From: Ilex aquifolium
Lineage: Eukaryota; Streptophyta; Magnoliopsida; Aquifoliales; Aquifoliaceae
NCBI GenBank assembly: GCA_951799425.1
Contig: OX637398.1
Coordinates: forward strand, 1,984,001 to 2,048,000
Length of the DNA: 64,000 nucleotides
Reading direction: 5' to 3'
Shown: in pieces, positions 18,332 to 50,763 of the stretch
Position numbering within the stretch: position 1 is the stretch's first letter
How the letters are laid out: each line of letters begins with the position of its first letter
The notes under the pieces: generated by a model
Databases searched by the model: none
The model's input: the letters and a program-made list of their open reading frames with translations, nothing else
Told to the model about the DNA's origin: nothing
Made by a program: the position numbers and the translations under genes

Positions 18332-18819
18332 ACATGAAAATTTTAAAAAATTTCTCTTTCTTGCATTTTCTATCATTCTCCCGCTAAACAAACGATTTAA
18401 GACGAAGTCTTCTTATCATTCCCCTTTTCTTTATAATAGAATAGATTAATTGGCGTACATTAAAGTTATACTGCGAATAAAATAATTCAAAAAAATAAAA
18501 AGAGGAAATAAGTGTATACAAATTAACTTACTCATTCCGTCAATGTTAATAAGGTCATTTTTAAAGGAATAAGCAATAGAAGCTAATGAAATGATCAAAT
18601 TGTAATATTTTTAATACATTGAGGGTATAATATAAAAAAATTAATTTTTGAGAATATAAAGTAAAAAATATTAAATCTTTTGGGGTACAAATTAAGATTC
18701 TCCCTCTTTTTGAAAAATTATCAGGGCTGACCCGATAAGTAAACCGTGGGTTGTAGATCTATTTCCAAGTTGGGTAGCCCGGTTCATTTGCCCAGGCATA
18801 CGTTAAGAATACCCACCCA

Positions 18820-18980
18820 CCGCTCGATTTAGGGTTTTTGGAGAGTCATCGCACATCAGATCTATGCCTATATAACAATCGCCTCAAGTTTGATAGGTAC
18901 GTACATACTCCACATCCTTCACTCCTCTCCAGTTCTGTGCCTCTCTCTCTCTCTGCCGATTTAGGGTTTTCGTTTCGGCT
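18820..18980 (+). promoter_or_regulatory. Putative promoter/leader of the snoRNA cluster with two telo-boxes
   Basis: Two copies of a telo-box-like motif occur: GATTTAGGGTTTTTGG at about 18826-18841 and GATTTAGGGTTTTCG at about 18958-18972, separated by CT-rich leader sequence. Telo-boxes (AAACCCTAA, either strand) are enriched in plant promoters of snoRNA and ribosomal-protein genes. Their position just upstream of the box C/D snoRNA candidates supports a ribosome-biogenesis type transcription unit. No protein ORF follows. The exact TSS is unknown. Confidence 0.45.
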
Positions 18981-19073
18981 AATACAAGTTCACCTCTCTC
19001 TCTTCCTCAATGTATCATCTGTCTCTTCGTTTATTGCTATTAAGCTTTAACTTGTTTTTTGTTTTGGTGATTT

Positions 19074-19157
19074 GAAATCATTTGATGAGAAAAAAAAACT
19101 GCAACAATATGATGGCTTAATCCCATGATTAGCTGTATTTAAGTCTCTGATGATTTC
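19074..19157 (+). ncRNA. Box C/D snoRNA candidate 1
   Basis: An 84-nt unit with a perfect 7-bp terminal stem (GAAATCA at 19074-19080 and TGATTTC at 19151-19157). The stem closes on a C box TTGATGA at 19082-19088 and a D box CTGA at 19147-19150. The interior 19112-19122 reads ATGGCTTAATC, complementary to the conserved 18S segment GATTAAGCCAT near the 18S 5' end. A D' box next to that stretch is not canonical, so the target is tentative. It lies 115 bp upstream of the better-supported U18 unit. Confidence 0.6.
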
Positions 19158-19271
19158 TACATATCTGGTATATCTCTATTGCCTTTACTTTACTTTTTTT
19201 TTTGTTTGCACTTTTTTTCTAGTTAATTTTGTTTCCGAAATCTAACAAAATCAATTGATTTATGAAAATGA

Positions 19272-19351
19272 GGAGATGTGATGAGTAATCTATTTGGTCC
19301 GTGTTTCAGATCTAACCGTGACCGATAAACCTTTACCAACCTCTGATCTCC
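19272..19351 (+). ncRNA. U18: U18 (SNORD18-type) box C/D snoRNA
   Basis: An 80-nt unit with terminal stem GGAGA/TCTCC, C box GTGATGA (19278-19284) and D box CTGA (19343-19346). The internal D'-like CAGA is at 19307-19310, with a C'-like sequence at about 19318-19325. The guide upstream of D' (19294-19306, TTGGTCCGTGTTT) is complementary to the conserved 25S/28S sequence AAACACGGACCAA. The fifth position upstream of D' pairs with an adenosine, corresponding to the 2'-O-methylated A649 of yeast 25S that U18 guides. The guide, box layout and terminal stem together make this a confident assignment. It directs rRNA methylation in the nucleolus as a fibrillarin snoRNP. Confidence 0.85.
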
Positions 19352-19728
19352 CTTCTCTCTGATTTCATTAATAAATTATTTTTGTTTTCGACTTTCGTTT
19401 TTACCGAGAATGTATTATTAGCTATCAATTGTGTTGGATCTTTAAGGTTTCGAGTTTTGAATCTTTGTTAATGTTTGCATTGATTGTGTTTATCTCAATT
19501 TGATTCATTCCAGTGGTGGCTGGCTAGCTCTGTGATTACTTGCCTGATTTATTTATTAGGCAATATACGCTATTCCGATTCAAGATATGAGCGGATAAAT
19601 TTTTAAGAAGAATGAGAGCTATTGCTATTGCTATTGCTGCTATTACTATTATTTTTTGTTATATTTGAAATTTATTGAATTCTCTGTTTTGTTTTTGTGT
19701 AAAGCGTTGTTTTATTTATTTGTCACTT

Positions 19729-19822
19729 CTGCAATGATGAATTATGAATAAATTCACATGTCAGACTTCAGAGATTTTTATAAAGAAAATCTATGAGAAG
19801 AAATTTCATGTTTTCTGAGCAG
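19729..19822 (+). ncRNA. Possible third box C/D snoRNA
   Basis: C box ATGATGA (19734-19740), D box CTGA (19815-19818) and a 4-bp closing stem CTGC/GCAG (19729-19732 and 19819-19822), with D'-like CAGA motifs near 19763 and 19770. The stem is short and no rRNA target was recognised. Support comes mainly from proximity to the U18 unit. Confidence 0.35.
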
Positions 19823-20029
19823 CAGAATATCTCCTCCTTTTTATGATGTCTATTTTTAGATATACACAAATCACATACATATGTTTTCTCATCGGATTCC
19901 TATTGAAATCAAATTTAGGCCTGAATCTGGGTTTCTACGTTACTGTCGGCGGCGTGATTTTCCTAGTAGGTTAAATTAAGAGAAAGCTTATGCAGAAGAA
20001 TATGGCACTAGGGTTGTAGATTAATGGTC

Positions 20030-21418
20030 CGTTTGGTAGGCTGGATAAAAAAATAGAATAAATGATACGAAGTGATGTTTCTCCCTCTTTTGTGTTGGGT
20101 AAGAGAAAATAGAAAGTAGGAATGATTGAATTTTTTGTAAGGTGGGGTTATTTTTTGCCTCCACAAAAATTAATTTTTACCCTATTTAATTTTTTATTAT
20201 TAAATTATTAAGTTTATTCTTTCTATACTCAATTCTATTGACAACTAAAGCCATCACATGTTATTCTGACCCTATTAATAATTTAAAACAAAATTAAAAA
20301 AAAAAAAGAAACATATAAAACGGAAAGAAGAAAAGAAGAAAAAAAAAGGAACAAGGAAAGAGAAACAAGAAAAAAAAATTACAAGTGAAGACGGAATAAA
20401 CAAAACCACAATCAAAACAGAGGAATAATAAAGACGAAACATGAAAAATAAAACAAATCAACCAAATAGTAATTACAACAAACAAAACAAGAAAAGAAAA
20501 ACGAAAGAAGATAATTAGTGGTTGCAAGAGATACCAAAATACTAATCTAATTGAATACATATATATAAAAAAACATAAATTTAAATAAAAAATTATTAAA
20601 CTTGACAAAGATATTAAAATACACCAAAAATAATCAAAATTCACACAACACACGTGAAATCAAACATATAATTAAATCGATAAATAATATTAATTTGTAT
20701 TTCACTAAAAAAATTTATATTAAAAAAATATTTTTATGGGTGTATGAGATGAGGTAGTGAATAAAACTTTAATTGTGAGAAAATATAAGATAGACATTAT
20801 TAAAGGTTGTGTATAGATGGGGTGGTAGACATTATTAAAGAGGTGGGTATAGAATGGGTGGACTTAATAGGTTGATAATAAAATATTAACAAGGTGGGAA
20901 TAGATTTTTGTAGGATAGGAATAGAAGAATAGTCCCATCCTTTTTTGTATTTGGTTAGAGGAAAATTTTTTTTTATTTTTTTATTTTTTTTATAAATATA
21001 AATGTATATTTTATCATTATATTTATATATAAAATTAATATATACATAATATATAATTAATAAATATGATATATTTATATATCAAATAATATATAGACAA
21101 ATAACATGTATTTTAACACATAATTAATTTTTTATTTATTTTTTCTCTAAATTTTGAAGGGATTAGTTTTGATGAATTAGAAGGAAAGTTAATCTATCCA
21201 TTTTTTCATCATTTTTATTTTTTTTTTCTTAACAAATATGATGTTTTAGGAAGAACAACTTTTGTACAAAAAATAATTTTTTTCAAGACAAAAATTAAAA
21301 AATTTTCTCATTGAAAAGATAAACCTAAAATAGACCTTTGAGTCATCCACACAAAAAATGTTGTATTTGATAATTTTTGCCCTTGTTGGACTTGTTTGAA
21401 CAGTACAATGCAGGGGTG
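20030..21418. repeat. AT-rich region of TIR-element remnants, no gene
   Basis: From about 20030 a GGTCCGTTTGGTAGGCTGG start resembles the ends of the dispersed TIR elements in this window, and a GTATTTGGTTAG motif lies near 20950. The interior is poly-purine/AT-rich. The Phe/Leu-rich ORF on the minus strand at 20294-20653 is a composition artefact. Boundaries cannot be fixed. Confidence 0.35.
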
Positions 21419-31758: not shown

Positions 31759-32167
31759 CTCATCCAACAAACAAATCTTACCCACTTTCTGTTTCTCTCT
31801 CCGTCTTTCAAAATGCCTACAAGAAGCTGAATCGAAAGTCTGTTTGGGAAGAAAGAAAGTTCAAAGAACTGATCTAGGAAAATGAGGGAATATGAGGGAA
31901 AATGGGGGTAAAGGCAATGGTAAGTGGAATGAATTTAGAGCTCCTCCGTTTGTAATTCGTCTTCCTTTCTCTCTGTAATCTCTAATCTGTGAAATCTTGT
32001 TAGGGTGTTATTATGTATAATCTCTCTCTACAGTGGTGGAGTGTTGTTGGGTGTTTGGAATAGTAGTTGTAGTTTGTACATGTCTTAGAGGGGACGACTT
32101 GTTCTAATCTATCTGAATATTGGAACTCTGCAGGTGGAATTTGGGATGATTCACCGACAAAAAAAGG

Positions 32168-33108
32168 ATAAATTTCAACTACATCTCTTATAGTTTATCA
32201 TATTTTCAAAGACACCCTCTATATTTTTTGAAACTTCACTAACACCCCTATCAGATTAAAAATATTAATTAGAATGCAATTTTACTAAATTGCCCATGAT
32301 ATATTTGAGGACAAACTTCATTCACACCCCATCTAGATAAGTATATCTTTAATGAGACCCCATCTATTTTCTAATATTTTTTAAGTATTAAAATTCGGGC
32401 CGATTAAAATTCAATTCAAGTTAATTAAAATTTATTTTTTTACATATTAAAATTTGAGCAGATTAAAAATTATATTTTTTACGTATTAAAATTTGGGCTA
32501 ATTAAAATTCTATTTTAGCCAATTAAAAAAATATTTTTAATAGACTCAAATCAAATTTTAATCAACTCACATTGAATTTTAATCGGCCCAAATTTTAATA
32601 CATAAAAAAATATAAATTTTAATTGACTCAAATTTTAATAAATCGAATTTTAATTGACATGAATTTTAATAAGTAAAAAAAATATAAATTTTAATCGACT
32701 CGAAAGCGAATTTTGATCGACACTAATAACTCGGGTAGAGTTCAAATCGGCTCAAATTTTAACACATAAAAAATAAATTTTAATAAGCTCAAATTTTAAT
32801 ACGTTAAAAAAATAAAATTTAATCAGTGTGAATCGAATTTTAATTGGTTCAAATTTTAATATGTAAAAAATAAATTTTAATCAGCTCGAATTTTAATAAA
32901 ATTTGATATAAAAAAATTACTTGATGTTTATGTAGGGGCATTTTTGGTATTTTAGATGAATTTTTTTTGTTAGAAATGGTAGTTTAATGGTGGGGGGTGT
33001 TAGTGATGTTTAAATATAAACTAAAAGGGTTGTCAGTGATATTTTTGATAATAGAAGAAGTGTCCTTGAAGATATAATAAACTAGGAGGGGTGTGATTGA
33101 AATTTTTC
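32168..33108. mobile_element. About 940-bp long-TIR AT-rich element
   Basis: The left arm (ATAAATTTCAACTACATCTC..., from 32168) and right arm (...GGTGTGATTGAAATTTTTCC, to 33108) are imperfect reverse complements for about 90 bp; both include a CACTAACACCCC-type block or its complement. The interior is the degenerate tandem repeat listed separately. There is no coding capacity. Its arm style (AAATTTCA start, alternating 'ACACCC' blocks) resembles the 35060-35395 element. Confidence 0.55.
32380..32925. repeat. Degenerate tandem repeat of AATTTTAATnnnnTC-type units
   Basis: About fifteen variants of a roughly 35-40-bp unit built on AAATTTTAAT(A/T)(C/A)(G/A)TAAAAAA and its inverted form (TTAAAATTTGGGC). 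Copies appear in both orientations: TTAAAATTNGG-type on the left half and AATTTTAATCG-type on the right, so the block is roughly palindromic at large scale. It forms the inside of the long-TIR element. Confidence 0.6.
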
Positions 33109-33109
33109 C

Positions 33110-35058
33110 AAAAAAAATACAATAAAAATTAAAAGAATATGAATATCTAACGATTAAGATTGATTTAATTTTTATTTATTTTAATTTAATAATAAAAAAT
33201 TTATCCCAAAATTATTTTTTTGCTAAAAAACATCATATTTTCTACGTGACTCCAATTTCCTACAATCCAATCAACACAATCTTCAATGTCAAATCTCTTC
33301 ATTAATTCATACTTACTTCTCTCTCTTTTCTCTTCTATATTTATCATTTTATCTTTTTTTATTTAATTTTAAATTATGTAATTTAAAACTAAATAAATTA
33401 TTATTTAAAATATAAATATTATATAATAAATACTTAATTTTTAAAATTATAAAATATTTTTAAACACGAGATTATTATTAGTATAGTCTTTAAAAATGTT
33501 GGGCCACACTTGCTTAATAAGTGTCGGTCCATCTTGACGTCTGGTCTAAATTACAATTTTACCCACTGGGAGGGGTGAAGTTCATTATTAGAACTAGGAC
33601 TAGACTTATTAAACAATTTCAGGCTTCGTTATGATTTGATCAATGTCTGTTATTTAATTCTTCAAATTGTCACTAATTTGAACAAAAAGCAAAAAATTGA
33701 CTTTCGACTCAATTTAGTTTTTAGTCCATTTGATCACCAAAGTTCATAAGTCTTAATCAAAGAAAAATTAAATGGACGTTAAAAACGACTCAAGCTCATA
33801 TGAACACGTATTCATACTGAAAGCACACACAATTATTATCCTGGCGCTCGGCTTTTAAAAATGATCCCTTCATTTCATCAGAGGGGAGTCATCCTACACA
33901 TGAAAACCAATGATCAATTAATTAAATCAAATGAACTCAGCAGAACCATTTGACAGTTAAGGGAGAAAAGCAAAAGGTTGACTTGACTAGGCGAGCGAGT
34001 GGTTAGATGGTCCGTTTCAAGAAAGTCAAATTTCGTCATTTGCCAAAACTCGAATGAATATGCACGCATTAGGTTTTTACGATACCGATACTGCAATGAT
34101 CGCTTAATAATCGAGGTGACTGTTATAAGTCCGATGAAGGAGGTGAGTCCATACCAGTGAATTGGGGATTCGTGTATGAGTGAAAAACTCCTTTCATGTC
34201 TCAGTGAAAAAAAAAAAAAAAAACAAACTATCCTTTAATTTTGTGTATTCTAACAGAAACATCTCTCTAACTAATTACAGGAAATTCCCTCCAACTTTTC
34301 AACAATAATATAGAAGCCACATAACAATACTTGTTCTGCCGATAAATATCCTTCCCACACTGCACAATGTCAGTAATGTTTTCAAATAACTCCCGTGATA
34401 GTTCAAGTGATAAACTGAAGAATTTATTCTTTATGAATATCTTAGTTCAGACGTAGATGATCTACCTTTAATTGGTTCGAAGAAAAGATAAATCAAAATG
34501 CACATAAATTAATTCGAATATTTCTGACCGTTGAATGAAACAAAAAAATAATATTTTAAAACCTAATCACGAGTGTTTATTAGTACCTAATAAATATTGC
34601 CTTCAACACTCACCAGGCACCCAAATGTGGGTCCCAATCTTTCAAGGTCACTCACCAGCTCACCAACCCAACCATACCTGTAAAATGATCTCAAACCATC
34701 AATAATTTTATCTCTTAATAATAATAATTAATAAAAAAATTATAATATTTCCTTTTTGGGGATATGCTATTTTTATTCATCCTAAATGATTAGTTGATAG
34801 AGGTACGAAACCATTTATAGTCCTCAACAATTATTGAATGGAGAGTTTAATTCTTGTAAAAGCAAAATCCACTGCGGGTCCCAATGATTCGCGTGCTTGA
34901 TTTATTAGTTCTGACTTTTATTAATAAAATGTAAATTAAATAATACCATCCAACTCAGAGAATAATTATATTAAAAAAGGCAACTTGTCCACTTCTTGAT
35001 CATAGTAAATATTAATCCCCAATAAAACTGTTTAGGAATATTGGCATCATCTTTTTAG
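33110..35058. other. AT-rich spacer, no gene recognised
   Basis: No coding frame with family resemblance; homopolymer A run near 34208. Nothing further can be supported. Confidence 0.4.
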
Positions 35059-44660: not shown

Positions 44661-45028
44661 ACAATACAATTTTAATAATTTTTTAACTTTAATTTTTTCA
44701 TTTCATTTTTTAAACTTTATTTTTAGACGTAACATCAGCTCTAAAGAGGCTTAATAGTAATACCTCAATTGCGACATGGTTTAAGTCAAAGGGGTTGGGA
44801 TTAATCCGTACAAGTTAGGCCCTTTATTATTCTTTTTTTTTTTTGACAGATCCCTTTATTATTCAATTATATAAGAATTGAAATAAATAAGCAAAAGCAT
44901 CTTGGAAACTTCCGGGTCAACCATCCAAGTCGTCGATCTGTGAAAGACTCCCTTTAAATCAACAAATTAAGCCAAGAGGAAGAAAACTAATAGCAAACAA
45001 CAAACAAAGCTTTTCATTACAGAAAAGC

Positions 45029-48000
45029 ATGGAGTTCTTCAACAAAGCTAAATCTGTGAGACTCAGAAGCCACCTTGGCAAGTACCTCTTCGCCGACGAC
45101 GATGAAGAGACCGTCCGGCAAAGCCGTAACGGCTCCTCAAGGAAAGCCCGTTGGACCGTCGAGTTTGTGGAAGGGAATAACCATGTAATTCGTCTCAAGA
45201 GCTTTCACGGCAAGTACCTCACCGCCTCCGACGAGACTTTCCTTCTAGGTATGACAGGAAAAAAGGTGGTTCAAACTATACCGACTACGATGAAGGATAA
45301 TTCTATAGAGTGGGAGCCGATAAAGGAAGGGTTTGAAGTGAGGTTAAGGGCAAAAGGAGGGAAGTTCTTGAGGGCTAATGGGGCCACACCGCCATGGAGG
45401 AACTCTATAACTCATGATCTTCCTCACAGAACTGCAACACAAAGTTGGGTTTTGTGGGAAGTCGATGTAGTGGACATTTGTGTATTGGACTTGGAGTCTG
45501 AGTCATTGCCTAGTTATGTGTCGCCGGCGTCAAGTTTTTCTTCATTACCGGCCGACGATTTTACGGGTTCGGACACTCGCTCCCCATCAATCGCCCCTGA
45601 GAGCCGTTCGTCTTCAATCTTCTCCTATAGATCCAGACCCTCTAGTGGAAGACAGGTATTCTTTCCTACCCATAAATCAAAAATTTTATAGATTAAAATG
45701 TCGAAATTATAAGAATAAGGACTCGAGTGAGACAACTTTTTTCTAATATTACTAGCAATGCCTTTTCAACCCAATTGACAATTACATTGCAGAACGGAAT
45801 GGAGCTATTTGACAAAGCTAAAGCAGTTAGACTCCAAAGCCACCACGGCAAGTACTTAGTCGCCGACGATGATGAACAGACCGTCCGGCAAAGCCGTAAT
45901 GGCTCTTCCCACAAGGCACGTTGGACAGTCGAGTTCATCGAAGGAAAACCCCATGTTATCCGCCTAAAGAGCCACCACGGCCTGTACCTCACCGCCACCG
46001 ACGAGGCATTCCTTCTCGGAATGACCGGAAACAAGGTTCTTCAAACTCTTCCGGCGACAAAGTCGGACACTTCAATCGAGTGGGAGCCTATAAAAGAAGG
46101 GGCTTTCCATGTGAAGCTTCGAACAAGCCAAGGGAAGTTCTTGAGGGCAAATGGCGGTACACCTCCTTGGAGGAACTCGATAACTCATGACGTTCCTCAT
46201 AGAACTGCGACTCAGGATTGGGTTTTGTGGGGAGTGGATGTTGTGGACATATCGTTGTCGGATTCGGAGCCGTTATCGAGCTGTACATCGACGGCGTCAA
46301 ACTTTTCCGCATTGGCAGATGATTTTTCTGGGTCGCCGGACACCGGATCACCGATGGTCGTTTCCGCAGGAAGGCTTGGACATGCCTCTACGAGGCAGGT
46401 AAATCGATTAACTTTGCCAAATTGACATTGACTTTCGTTTGACTATCATTCTTTTTATCTATTGCTATGGTTAGGGTCGATAATTGAGCTGAGTTATTCG
46501 AGTTTGATTCGGATAAAAACTCTATTTGTATTCTAAATAAGTTGAGTTTAAACAATTATTTAGACTTGATTAGAAAATGAACCTAAAAGGCTCGATCAAA
46601 TGAATCGAACTTGAACAATTTTTTAGACTTATTTAAAAAATAAGCCTAAAAGACTCGACTCGTTTATATGTAAAATAGTCAAGTTATTCGGGTTCGGCTC
46701 AAGTTTGACTTATTTTGGATTTACTTCAAGCTCGACTAATTTTTTAAAAGAACTGGATTTGAATAATTTTTTAGACTCATTTAGAAAACAAGCTTAAAAG
46801 AGACGACTCGTTTATATGTATAATAGTTAAGCACTTTGGACTCAGATCATGTTTGACTCGTTTTGGACTTAGTTCGGGTTCGACTCGTTTTTTATAAGAG
46901 TCAAACTTAAACAATTTTTTAAATTCATTTAAAAAACTAAATTCGATAGACACGACTCAAACTTACAAAATTCAACTCAATTTTGTTGCTTATTAGTTTT
47001 AGTGGCAGGAGAGATGTAGTCGTGTGACACATGCAAAATATTTTTGGCACCGTGTTAGGCATGGGCATTTGTCAGAGAAAGAGGTGAAGTAAAGGCGAAA
47101 AAGAGACAGTTAAAAGAAAGAAAAATGTGAAAGAGAGGCAGAGAGTCATTTGAATTAGGAAGTTATTATAAATTAATTATTAATAAAAGAAGTGGACACT
47201 AAACTCCTCTTCTCATTTTTTTAACAGTGTAGATTAGTAGTTCGTTGATCCATACATAAAGTCAATGTGCCAAGAATCAATCGTATATTGTGGTGCTTAA
47301 AAACTTACTAGACTAATCAAGCAATTAAAGCTAAACTTTCTTGAAATAGAAAACTAGTCTGAAACCATGTGATGTTTTCATACCTCAATGAATAGCTAAT
47401 AAGTCAGCAATCTGATGGGACCTCGAGAGTCTGACTTGCAAGATCAATAGCAGATATCGACGACTTCAAATATAAGAATGGCATATAAAATGAAATTTCA
47501 TACCCAAGTATCATGTGGAATAATAATGTGGTTTCACAATTAGTCTTTTATTTCAAAGAAATGAATGATAATTAGTATATTATAAAACATTAGTCATATC
47601 ATTTTGCCTAGAAATTCTTATATCAAAGTTTTCTGTATAAGAGTATGTTATACTATTGCATAATGTAAGAAATATCATCTTTTGGGTGGTGCAGTGATTG
47701 CGTTTGAGTGGTTAACGGATTAACTCGATAAACTCGTGAAATAAACAAATTAATTTTATGTTTAACCCATAAATGCATTTCAACCCATTTAACTTGTTAA
47801 TAGTAGCACTATAAATTTCAAAAAAAAAATTGGTTTCTCAGTCTCTACCTCATCTCATGCCTTCCATCTCTTAGACTCATTCGAATTTGGTAGTAATTTA
47901 ATGTTTATTTTTTGTTTTTACTTTTCTGCTTAGTCATAATTTATTGTTATAATAAACATATTAAACATGCATGGATTCGAAATACTCTAATTGATGCTTT

Positions 48001-50763
48001 TATGTAGCGGGTGACACATGGGTTGTGTCGAGTATCCCGTCTAATAAACGAGTCGTATACAGATGTGATAGTTGAACCCGTTTATATAAACGAATGGGGT
48101 ATGGATGGAGGATTTTTTGACGCAAATTCGTTCTACCTGACACAAAACTGTTTCACCCAACACGATTGTCAGACCTAATTGCGTTTGACTTTTGGTAACT
48201 CAGAGATCTCAGATTCAATCCATTCCTAAATCCCCTAAGGGTTAGCCACTCTTGTCCCTTTAGGAATATGTTCTAATTCAATTCAAGTCACGGTGTGAAA
48301 CCCTGAGTTTGTGGAAATAATCGACACAACTTGGACACTTATTAATAATAATAATAATAATATAAGAAATCTCCAAGCAATTCATTGGATTCTCCTTCCT
48401 TCTGCCGTCGCAGCAGAAGTCAATAGCAGAGAAAGAGCCCAAAATTGCCAATTGCCAATTGCCAAAGCCATAACTATGTGGGCCACTTCCTAATCCTACA
48501 TCTCTGACTAAAACGGCATTGCTGAATTCAAGCTTGACAACACAGCACCACAACGTTTTGTCACACTTGCCATTGTAGCCGTTAATCCACATCTAAGAGA
48601 CCATCTCCAACCTTCAAAAACTGAGCATTTCATCAACCTTGAAATTTATGGCATGAAAAAAAAAACAACCTTCAAAAGCTCATATAGTCATACCCATCTT
48701 CAGATCTCTCCCCTTTTACTTTTTTGAAATTTGAGACAAGTCCCATAGAAATCCCTTTCTGAATTTGTTTATATTCGTTGTATTGATCCAGGTACAGCTT
48801 ATATATCTCCTGTACATGCAACTTTTTTTTTTTTTGGAAATATCATATGATTGTGTTGATGATTGATTTCAGAGTTCTGGAATGGAATTCTTCCAAAAAG
48901 CAAAAACGATCAGGCTCCGAAGCCACCATGACAAGTACTTATTAGCCGAAGAAGACCAAGAATCCGTGTACCAAGATCGATATGGCTCAGCCAAAAACGC
49001 AAAATGGACTGTGGAATTCGTTGAAGGCATTAACAATGTCGTTCGGTTGAGAAGCTGTTATGGCAAATACCTCACTGCCACTGAAGAACAATTCCTTCTG
49101 GGCGTGACGGGTCATAAAGTTCTTCAAACTACGCCGAGAAAATTGGATTCGTCGATCGAATGGGAGCCCATAAGAGATGGGTTTCTAGTGAAGCTCAAAA
49201 CTAGATATGGGAACTTTTTACGAGCAAATGCTGGGCTACCACCTTGGAGAAACTCAGTAACACATGATATACCTCAGAGGCATCATAATTGGGTTTTATG
49301 GGAAGTTGATGTCGTTGAGTTACGATCAGAATCATTGGAAAAAGTTTCACGATCAGCATCACCGGAAAATGTTTCACGATCGGAGTCTTTGGATTTGGAT
49401 TCGGATCTTAGCTCGTCTTCTTTTCATCTTCGCTCACCCAGATTCTCAAAGCTTGAGGTTTGTTTTGTTTGCCTGGGTACCACTATAGTTGTTAAGTATC
49501 GTATCTATTCGAACCCTCAATCTGAATCAAATTTATAATATCAAAGATTTCGTAATCGCTAAAAACATGATGATCGATCCTGACAAACAACTCTATTTTA
49601 TTATAATCTTATTACATTAAATTGTAATCTTGCCTTTATATTATAGAAATTTATGCTAAAAATAATTATTCAGTACAATACTTATTATGATTGGAAATTT
49701 TGACGGGTTTGTGCTGGTTTTAATTATATGCAGACAAACGATTCATTAGGTGGTTCACCAGTGAAGTCTAGAGGACGAACTATACATTATAATGTTGTAG
49801 ATGACAATGGAAACGTTGCTGATGATGCCATTGAAGGGCCTTCCTTTAATTTTAAAGGCCATGGTTTAGAGGAATTGACTCGGAAGTTGGAGGAAGAGAC
49901 GGGGCTAGAGGACATTATTGTGTGTTCCCGCGACACACATGGAAAGCTATATCAACTTCGGTTAGCTCTTCCCCCAAACAATGCAGCCATTCATATTGTT
50001 GTAGTTCCGTCGACTTCTAAAGGTTAGTACATAGAGGATTAATATTCTTCTAATACATTTTTTTTTATATTTTCTTCAGTGGTAAATTATTTATAATGAA
50101 TTTAAATAAGACTGATTATATGAAAGTGATTCTGCTCCAATACTTACTGATGAAAGGATACTACATAGGATCTAGATATGTATTTGGATTAGTAATGCAT
50201 TTATATGCCAAGTAAGTAATCACAGATTCACCCCTTTGGCTGGTTATCTTTATAATTATGCTCTTGTTTCATTAATTTTGAAATTCTCTGGAGTTTAGTC
50301 ATGTAAACAAACGTGTATTAGAATTGTATAATAATGGTCGAGCTGAAAAGTAGTATATTCCTATCATACCAGAATGTGTATTAATTTGCCAAAAGCAAAC
50401 AAGACGAGGCTGCATTGTAATGGTCCTTTGTCCACTTTAATAGCACTCTATCCTGTTAGTGTACTTATGTACAAATGTCTCACCAGGACACATAGTTTAA
50501 GGATGTTTTAGGGTAAGATATATGAGCTATTAGCAGTCAAGTCGAAATCAGGATGGTTAATACGAGTTCCATTATGTTTGTTTGTCTTTTTCAGAAAACT
50601 CTAGCCATCATCATATTCCTTTACTGCATAGTTCAAATTCTTCAATTGTGATCAAGTTGGTTTTTCTTCTCCTATTTGTTTTTGTTGGTTAAGAAATCTC
50701 TATGTTTATTTGACAGTGGCAAGAGAGTTTTTGGCAAAGACCCCCACTTCGACCATGACCTAG
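45029..50763 (+). CDS. Triple DUF569 (fascin-like, actin-cross-linking-related) protein
   Basis: Read as one gene with exons 45029-45655, 45793-46398, 48873-49457, 49734-50022 and a short last exon 50717-50763. The first three junctions are phase 0, the last phase 1, total 717 residues. Each of exons 1-3 encodes one DUF569 module of about 150 residues with the same landmarks: M-E-(F/L)-F-x-KAK, RLRSHxxKYL, ARWTVEF(V/I)EG, KYLTAxxExFLLG, IEWEPI, LRANxxxPPWRNS(I/V)THD and WVLW-VDVV, then a Ser-rich linker. Exon 4 carries the C-terminal domain GRTIHYNVVDDNG...FNFKGHGLEELTRKLEEETGL...NNAAIHIVVVP. DUF569 modules are beta-trefoil, fascin-like; Arabidopsis relatives have two modules and are loosely called actin cross-linking proteins, with no proven biochemical role. 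The 3' end is the least sure: an alternative acceptor at 50595 adds a different tail. Intron 2 is 2.5 kb and repeat-rich. Confidence 0.8.
46490..46985. repeat. About 147-bp degenerate tandem repeat in DUF569 gene intron 2
   Basis: The motif GACTCGTTTATATGTA recurs at about 46657 and 46804, with neighbouring blocks ACAATTTTTTAGACT and GGTTCG(G/A)CTC repeated at the same spacing. About three diverged copies are visible. No coding capacity. Confidence 0.6.
47697..48300. repeat. SINE-like repeat probably split by a 470-bp insertion
   Basis: ATTGCGTTTGA occurs at 47697-47707 and again at 48178-48188, bracketing about 470 bp of GGTTAACGG/CAACACG-type sequence. The right-hand copy continues into CTCAGATTCAATCC, which looks like a pol III B box. 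The arrangement suggests an element inserted into a SINE-like repeat and duplicated its target. The duplication length (8-11 bp) fits hAT or a chance extension. Confidence 0.3.

Follow-up and report, generated by a model that had tools for sequence, protein, structure and literature searches.

The window analysed in this study is the whole 64-kb stretch C8:1984001-2048000 of the Ilex aquifolium genome, a nuclear sequence within a plant genome of 800 Mb. Between positions 18820 and 19825 it carries a predicted cluster of four box C/D small nucleolar RNA (snoRNA) genes, which lie on the forward strand in the order snoZ199/SnoR13, U18, U54 and snoR64, behind a promoter-like leader. A second complete cluster, on C1, holds all four snoRNAs in the same order and on the same strand. 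The features of the window locus are as follows:

18828..18837, reverse strand: telo-box 1 (AAACCCTAAA), 5' of the TATA-like element; the C1 copy retains its AAACCCTA core (L004 2483)
18869..18875, forward strand: TATATAA, the presumed TATA box; the same word stands in the C1 copy at L004 2523
18960..18969, reverse strand: telo-box 2, some 85 bp downstream of the TATA-like element; also retained on C1
19075..19155, forward strand: snoZ199 box C/D snoRNA (RF00200, 73.9 bits against a gathering score of 47)
19083-19088 and 19147-19150, forward strand: C box and D box of snoZ199
19097-19108 and 19134-19145: snoZ199 D' guide to 18S and D guide to the 3' end of 25S
19272..19351, forward strand: U18 (SNORD18) box C/D snoRNA (RF00093 match at 19273-19350, 34.2 bits against a gathering score of 41)
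19278-19284, 19343-19346 and 19293-19309, forward strand: U18 C box, D box and guide to 25S
19526..19620, forward strand: U54 box C/D snoRNA (RF00206, 46.2 bits against a gathering score of 40)
19562-19574, forward strand: U54 guide to 18S
19726..19825, forward strand: snoR64 box C/D snoRNA (RF00267, 91.8 bits against a gathering score of 45)

Exactly three Rfam matches exceed the gathering score in the whole 64 kb, all of them on the forward strand and within 18820-19825, and the three families concerned, snoZ199, U54 and snoR64, are packed into 751 bp. A permissive Rfam search of the 2 kb from 18500 to 20500, with expectation values (E) up to 1, revealed no fifth unit, apart from four weak matches that overlap snoR64. 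An earlier sequence-only reading of this DNA had proposed a box C/D cluster containing U18 with a leader of its own, and this proposal is supported. The three units that it listed are real and its spacing was about right, since we measured 116 and 374 bases between them; however, it overlooked U54, which exceeds the Rfam cut-off and brings the total to four. What it described as a weaker third unit is snoR64, in fact the strongest Rfam match of the locus.

A box C/D RNA was taken to have a C box (RUGAUGA) and a D box (CUGA) joined by a short terminal stem. All four units show this anatomy, U54 with degenerate boxes. UGAUGA and CUGA are present in snoZ199, U18 and snoR64, and each unit retains a box D, which reads CTGA in these three and ATGA in U54. 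The U54 unit combines a degenerate C box (TGATTA) with an ATGA box that is as in the family model and with a terminal stem formed by AGCUC and GAGCU. U18, which has intact boxes and an intact stem, is the one match in the window to a strict scan for which the stem had to be 5 bp or longer. In 40 simulated sequences of 64 kb the same scan gave 0.1 matches on average and never more than 1; taken by itself, this result is modest. The other three units fail the scan owing to a degenerate box or an imperfect stem. In energy folding the four units do only partly better than shuffled sequences (z -1.74, -2.76, -2.11 and -1.01), which is as expected for C/D RNAs, and this signal was set aside as evidence. 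A fusion of transfer RNA (tRNA) and snoRNA was rejected after ARAGORN, with its bacterial code setting, gave no tRNA in the window.

Guides were defined as 10-20 nt antisense to ribosomal RNA (rRNA) directly 5' of box D or D', with the target at position 5. Pairing was tested mainly on rRNA pieces printed for other species: the 18S piece was taken from a microalga paper, and the 25S letters facing the U18 guide from a fungal large-subunit (LSU) sequence and an Arabidopsis primer, both printed. The U18 guide (UUGGUCCGUGUUU) pairs with 25S/28S AAACACGGACCAA by 15 Watson-Crick pairs out of 17, the rest being G-U, in both the window and the C1 copies. The snoZ199 guide 5' of D' pairs with 18S GTTGTTGCAGTT and the one 5' of D with 25S GACTTAAATACG, each with 11/12 Watson-Crick pairs and the remaining pair G-U. 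Pairing of the U54 guide with 18S AATAGCGTATATT is Watson-Crick throughout (13/13), while the snoR64 guide at 19757-19769, 5' of a D' box that reads CAGA, pairs with 25S GGAGTCTGACATG at 12 of 13 positions plus one G-U. Both complementarities put forward by the sequence-only reading, 13 nt of U18 to 25S and 11 nt of the first unit to 18S, are borne out by pairing with the printed rRNA.

The position-5 sites were read by hand, and their absolute numbers were taken from an Arabidopsis RiboMeth-seq table and fitted by spacing. The consulted part of this table lists U54 for 18S G599, SnoR13 for 18S U615 and 25S U3301, and U18 for 25S A661 (PMC8053127). The predicted sites of U18 at A661, U54 at G599 and snoZ199 at U615 fit the table by base and spacing, and the second predicted site of snoZ199, U3301, fits by base only; the spacings are 16 nt from G599 to U615 in 18S and 14 nt from A661 to C675 in 25S. 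An excerpt of another source numbers the U18 site Am660, one lower than A661 (PMC8351944). By its two guides, the unit that Rfam calls snoZ199 would correspond, in our identification, to Arabidopsis SnoR13. An exact copy of the 25S 3'-end piece opposite the D guide of snoZ199 is present at five places in the plant's own genome; in degenerate 18S-like copies there, TTGTTGCAGTT is kept in two and AATAGCGTATATTTAAG in one, and the stretch of 25S opposite the guides of U18 and snoR64 was not found in the regions of this genome that were examined for it. As a separate observation, the 18S-like sequences L031-L034, at four dispersed places among five pattern matches, are shortened relative to the 1831-position model and look like ribosomal DNA (rDNA) fragments in chromosomes.

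The C8, C1 and C15 copies of the cluster were aligned and identities were counted at ungapped positions. Between C8 and C1, identity reaches 70/79 in snoZ199, 74/80 in U18, 81/94 in U54 and 88/97 in snoR64. In the three spacers it is 64/116, 74/126 and 61/105, besides 16, 48 and 77 gap columns. The leader shows 154/218 identities, with both telo-box cores and TATATAA kept, and the 3' flank 65/154 (42%). The conserved blocks are therefore the promoter/leader and the four units, and there is no other strongly conserved block. On C15 there is a partial cluster (L005 2592-2969, reverse strand) of U54 and snoR64 only, in which a search with E as high as 0.1 found neither snoZ199 nor U18. It is 89-97% like C1 over the whole segment that begins with the U18-U54 spacer and ends with snoR64, and seems to be a later, partial duplicate of the C1 type. 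This copy is probably decaying, because snoZ199 and U18 give no match, two substitutions in its U54 guide turn pairs into G-U and the box D of its snoR64 reads TTGA.

Family searches of the whole genome found snoZ199 at two places, snoR64 at three and U54 at three plausible places. Of these last, the C1 and C15 ones fall under the cut-off, and U54 also has two weaker matches. In 14 prokaryote genomes that served as controls for the family-model searches, neither the snoZ199 nor the snoR64 model gave a match at E<=0.001 (0/14 each). Beyond the cluster, similar stretches are present around the C8 and C1 copies but their order is not collinear, and therefore no whole-genome duplication is claimed. 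Elsewhere in the window, a repeated sequence occupies 32158-33114. Several stretches similar to it, in either orientation, occur close to the clusters on C1 and C15; the repeat is probably a transposable element or a tandem repeat.

The covariance match of U18 spans the full length of the model (E=0.00043 in the 2-kb search), and its gathering score is a curator's threshold rather than a structural feature. In the whole-genome search, the window copy (E=0.042) and the C1 copy (E=0.034) are the top two among 10 listed places; the eight others are weaker, the third reaching 26.5 bits. Since the score alone is borderline, we assign the unit to U18 because of the pairing of its guide with 25S, its intact boxes and stem and its conservation on C1 (74/80). 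The sequence-only reading had counted the lack of a U18 covariance match as evidence against itself; a match of 34.2 bits is present, though below the cut-off.

Promoters that combine telo-boxes with Site II elements are described as a signature of plant snoRNA gene clusters in the consulted part of PMC4660826. Upstream of the first unit we find a telo-box and a TATA element, as looked for in the TeloSII promoter of a plant polycistronic snoRNA gene, for which a Site II element would also be expected within 1 kb; TATATAA and the telo-boxes are found in both complete copies. The two telo-boxes that had been noted in the leader were both located. Telo-box 1 lies in the presumed promoter and telo-box 2 probably in the transcribed leader; the latter stands between GCCGA and TCGGC arms (18955-18979) that are kept in the C1 copy; a leader hairpin is not claimed here, as the fold is no better than those of shuffles (z -0.50). 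Three strict Site II elements (TGGGCY) lie 5' of the C1 copy. A dispersed repeat is also seen 5' of the window cluster, at 18528-18639. Its C1 relative (L004 1738-1899) matches in both orientations, gives weak sub-threshold matches to microRNA (miRNA) precursor families and is possibly a miniature inverted-repeat transposable element (MITE).

Judged from its sequence, the locus is almost certainly a polycistronic gene of its own that encodes four box C/D snoRNAs, in the order snoZ199/SnoR13-U18-U54-snoR64. An independent RNA polymerase II unit is favoured because the common strand, the spacing, the lack of any stop-free stretch of at least 110 amino acids overlapping 18820-19825 and the lack of other strongly conserved blocks all fit it. 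In the predicted course of expression, RNA polymerase II would start near 18,900 from the TATA and telo-box promoter, and one precursor RNA would carry all four snoRNAs. Following what is known of plant snoRNA biology, the precursor would be cut between the units and the ends trimmed to the limits protected by the C/D core proteins. Each ribonucleoprotein (RNP) would then guide 2'-O-methylation at the fifth nucleotide upstream of box D or D', namely at 18S U615 and 25S U3301 for snoZ199, 25S A661 for U18, 18S G599 for U54 and 25S C675 for the D' guide of snoR64.

Several results weigh against this interpretation. The U18 score is below the gathering score both in the window and on C1 (34.5 bits), and the C1 copy of U54 is also under its cut-off (34.2 bits). 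At E<=10 the U18 model gives weak matches in 10 of the 14 prokaryote controls and the U54 model in 9 of them, none over the cut-off, and weak scores of these two models alone therefore mean little. No strict Site II element was found in 18501-19075. Nor did searches of this plant's genome sequence for exact matches recover the 18S and 25S segments opposite the guides, so that its own rRNA was dropped as guide partner and the printed pieces were used. Finally, our placing of the snoR64 site at C675 departs from the Arabidopsis table, where SnoR64 stands for U2884.

Some plant snoRNAs are intronic, as stated in the consulted parts of PMC4660826 and PMC5122169, and the four units might be intronic or exonic parts of a longer host gene. 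We consider this improbable: the TATA element and telo-boxes lie directly 5' of the units in both complete copies, C8-C1 conservation is limited to the promoter/leader and the four units while the 3' flank is poorly conserved, and the locus has no stop-free stretch of the length given above. It is just as hard to credit that the C8 copy is a decaying duplicate and that the C1 cluster is the working one. Two complete copies do exist, the C15 copy does look decayed, the C1 copy has three strict Site II elements upstream against none near the window cluster, in 18501-19075, and snoZ199 and U18 of the window score slightly under their C1 counterparts (73.9 against 78.3 and 34.2 against 34.5 bits). 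However, all four guides in the window keep full or near-full pairing, box D is retained in each unit, U54 and snoR64 outscore the C1 copies (46.2 against 34.2 and 91.8 against 87.3 bits), and the spacers have diverged whereas the units have not. The weak covariance match of U18 and a strict scan with one match, as many as the simulations reach at most, might point to units that resemble box C/D RNAs by chance in intergenic DNA rich in AT. This has a negligible probability, because three families exceed curated cut-offs within 751 bp, the unit order is duplicated on C1, the conservation pattern is strongly contrary and the guides match known rRNA sites.

With an independent polycistronic gene as the preferred reading, a further feature of its predicted targets is that the four snoRNAs are directed to two short rRNA patches, U54 and snoZ199 to one on 18S, and U18 and snoR64 to one on 25S. 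We drew four names at random from the 87 snoRNA names of the Arabidopsis table and counted as near those pairs of sites at most 16 nt apart. At least two near pairs occurred in about 0.35% of draws, a test that was chosen after the pattern had been seen and that depends on the C675 assignment; with table assignments only, one near pair is seen, and at least one occurs in about 10% of draws. We treat the adjacent targets as a curiosity. It is doubtful, though conceivable, that the cluster is a functional package in which co-transcription delivers neighbouring snoRNPs together and snoR64 acts as a second C675 guide beside SnoR58Y.

The assignment of the snoR64 D' guide to 25S C675 is our own and would hold for the family, since the same guide is present in the Rfam consensus line and is therefore a family property rather than one of this locus. 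In the consulted part of the Arabidopsis table, SnoR58Y is the guide for C675/U676 (PMC8053127), and the same excerpted source reports that a mutant without the less abundant SnoR58Y.2 shows only a small loss of methylation at C675/U676. The remaining SnoR58Y variant is a simpler explanation of the residual methylation at these positions than redundancy with snoR64; the latter nevertheless makes a small testable point. Away from the cluster, three adjoining open frames at 44891-49538 of the window are alike by eye, the first of which, the only one scanned, has a DUF569 domain, and this suggests a small tandem family.

Compared with the Rfam families RF00200, RF00093, RF00206 and RF00267, each unit matches its model from the first to the last position, with guides conserved. 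U18 scores under the RF00093 cut-off and has a divergent 3' half, and U54 is close to RF00206 in boxes and stem, except that its D' reads CCGA instead of the CUGA of the model. Because U18 falls under the cut-off, part of this cluster would be missed if a single Rfam cut-off were applied. Compared with the consulted Arabidopsis guides (PMC8053127), those of U18, U54 and snoZ199 (as SnoR13) fit the listed sites, whereas SnoR64 is listed for U2884 and the snoR64 D' guide of the window pairs at C675. The order snoZ199-U18-U54-snoR64 is absent from the ten conserved clusters named in the consulted part of PMC5122169, and the exact arrangement was not found described in the literature searched, which excluded the primary Arabidopsis (2001) and rice (2003) cluster papers. 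In its general plan, however, the locus resembles published plant snoRNA clusters, with several different C/D snoRNAs on the same strand at distances of 100-200 bp, a telo-box and TATA element upstream and no long open reading frame. Polycistronic snoRNA precursors are standard in plants, according to the same excerpt (PMC5122169). As a polycistronic snoRNA cluster the locus is thus ordinary and of a type standard for plants, and the present analysis adds to one plant genome a well-supported four-gene example together with its duplicate and a probably decaying partial copy.
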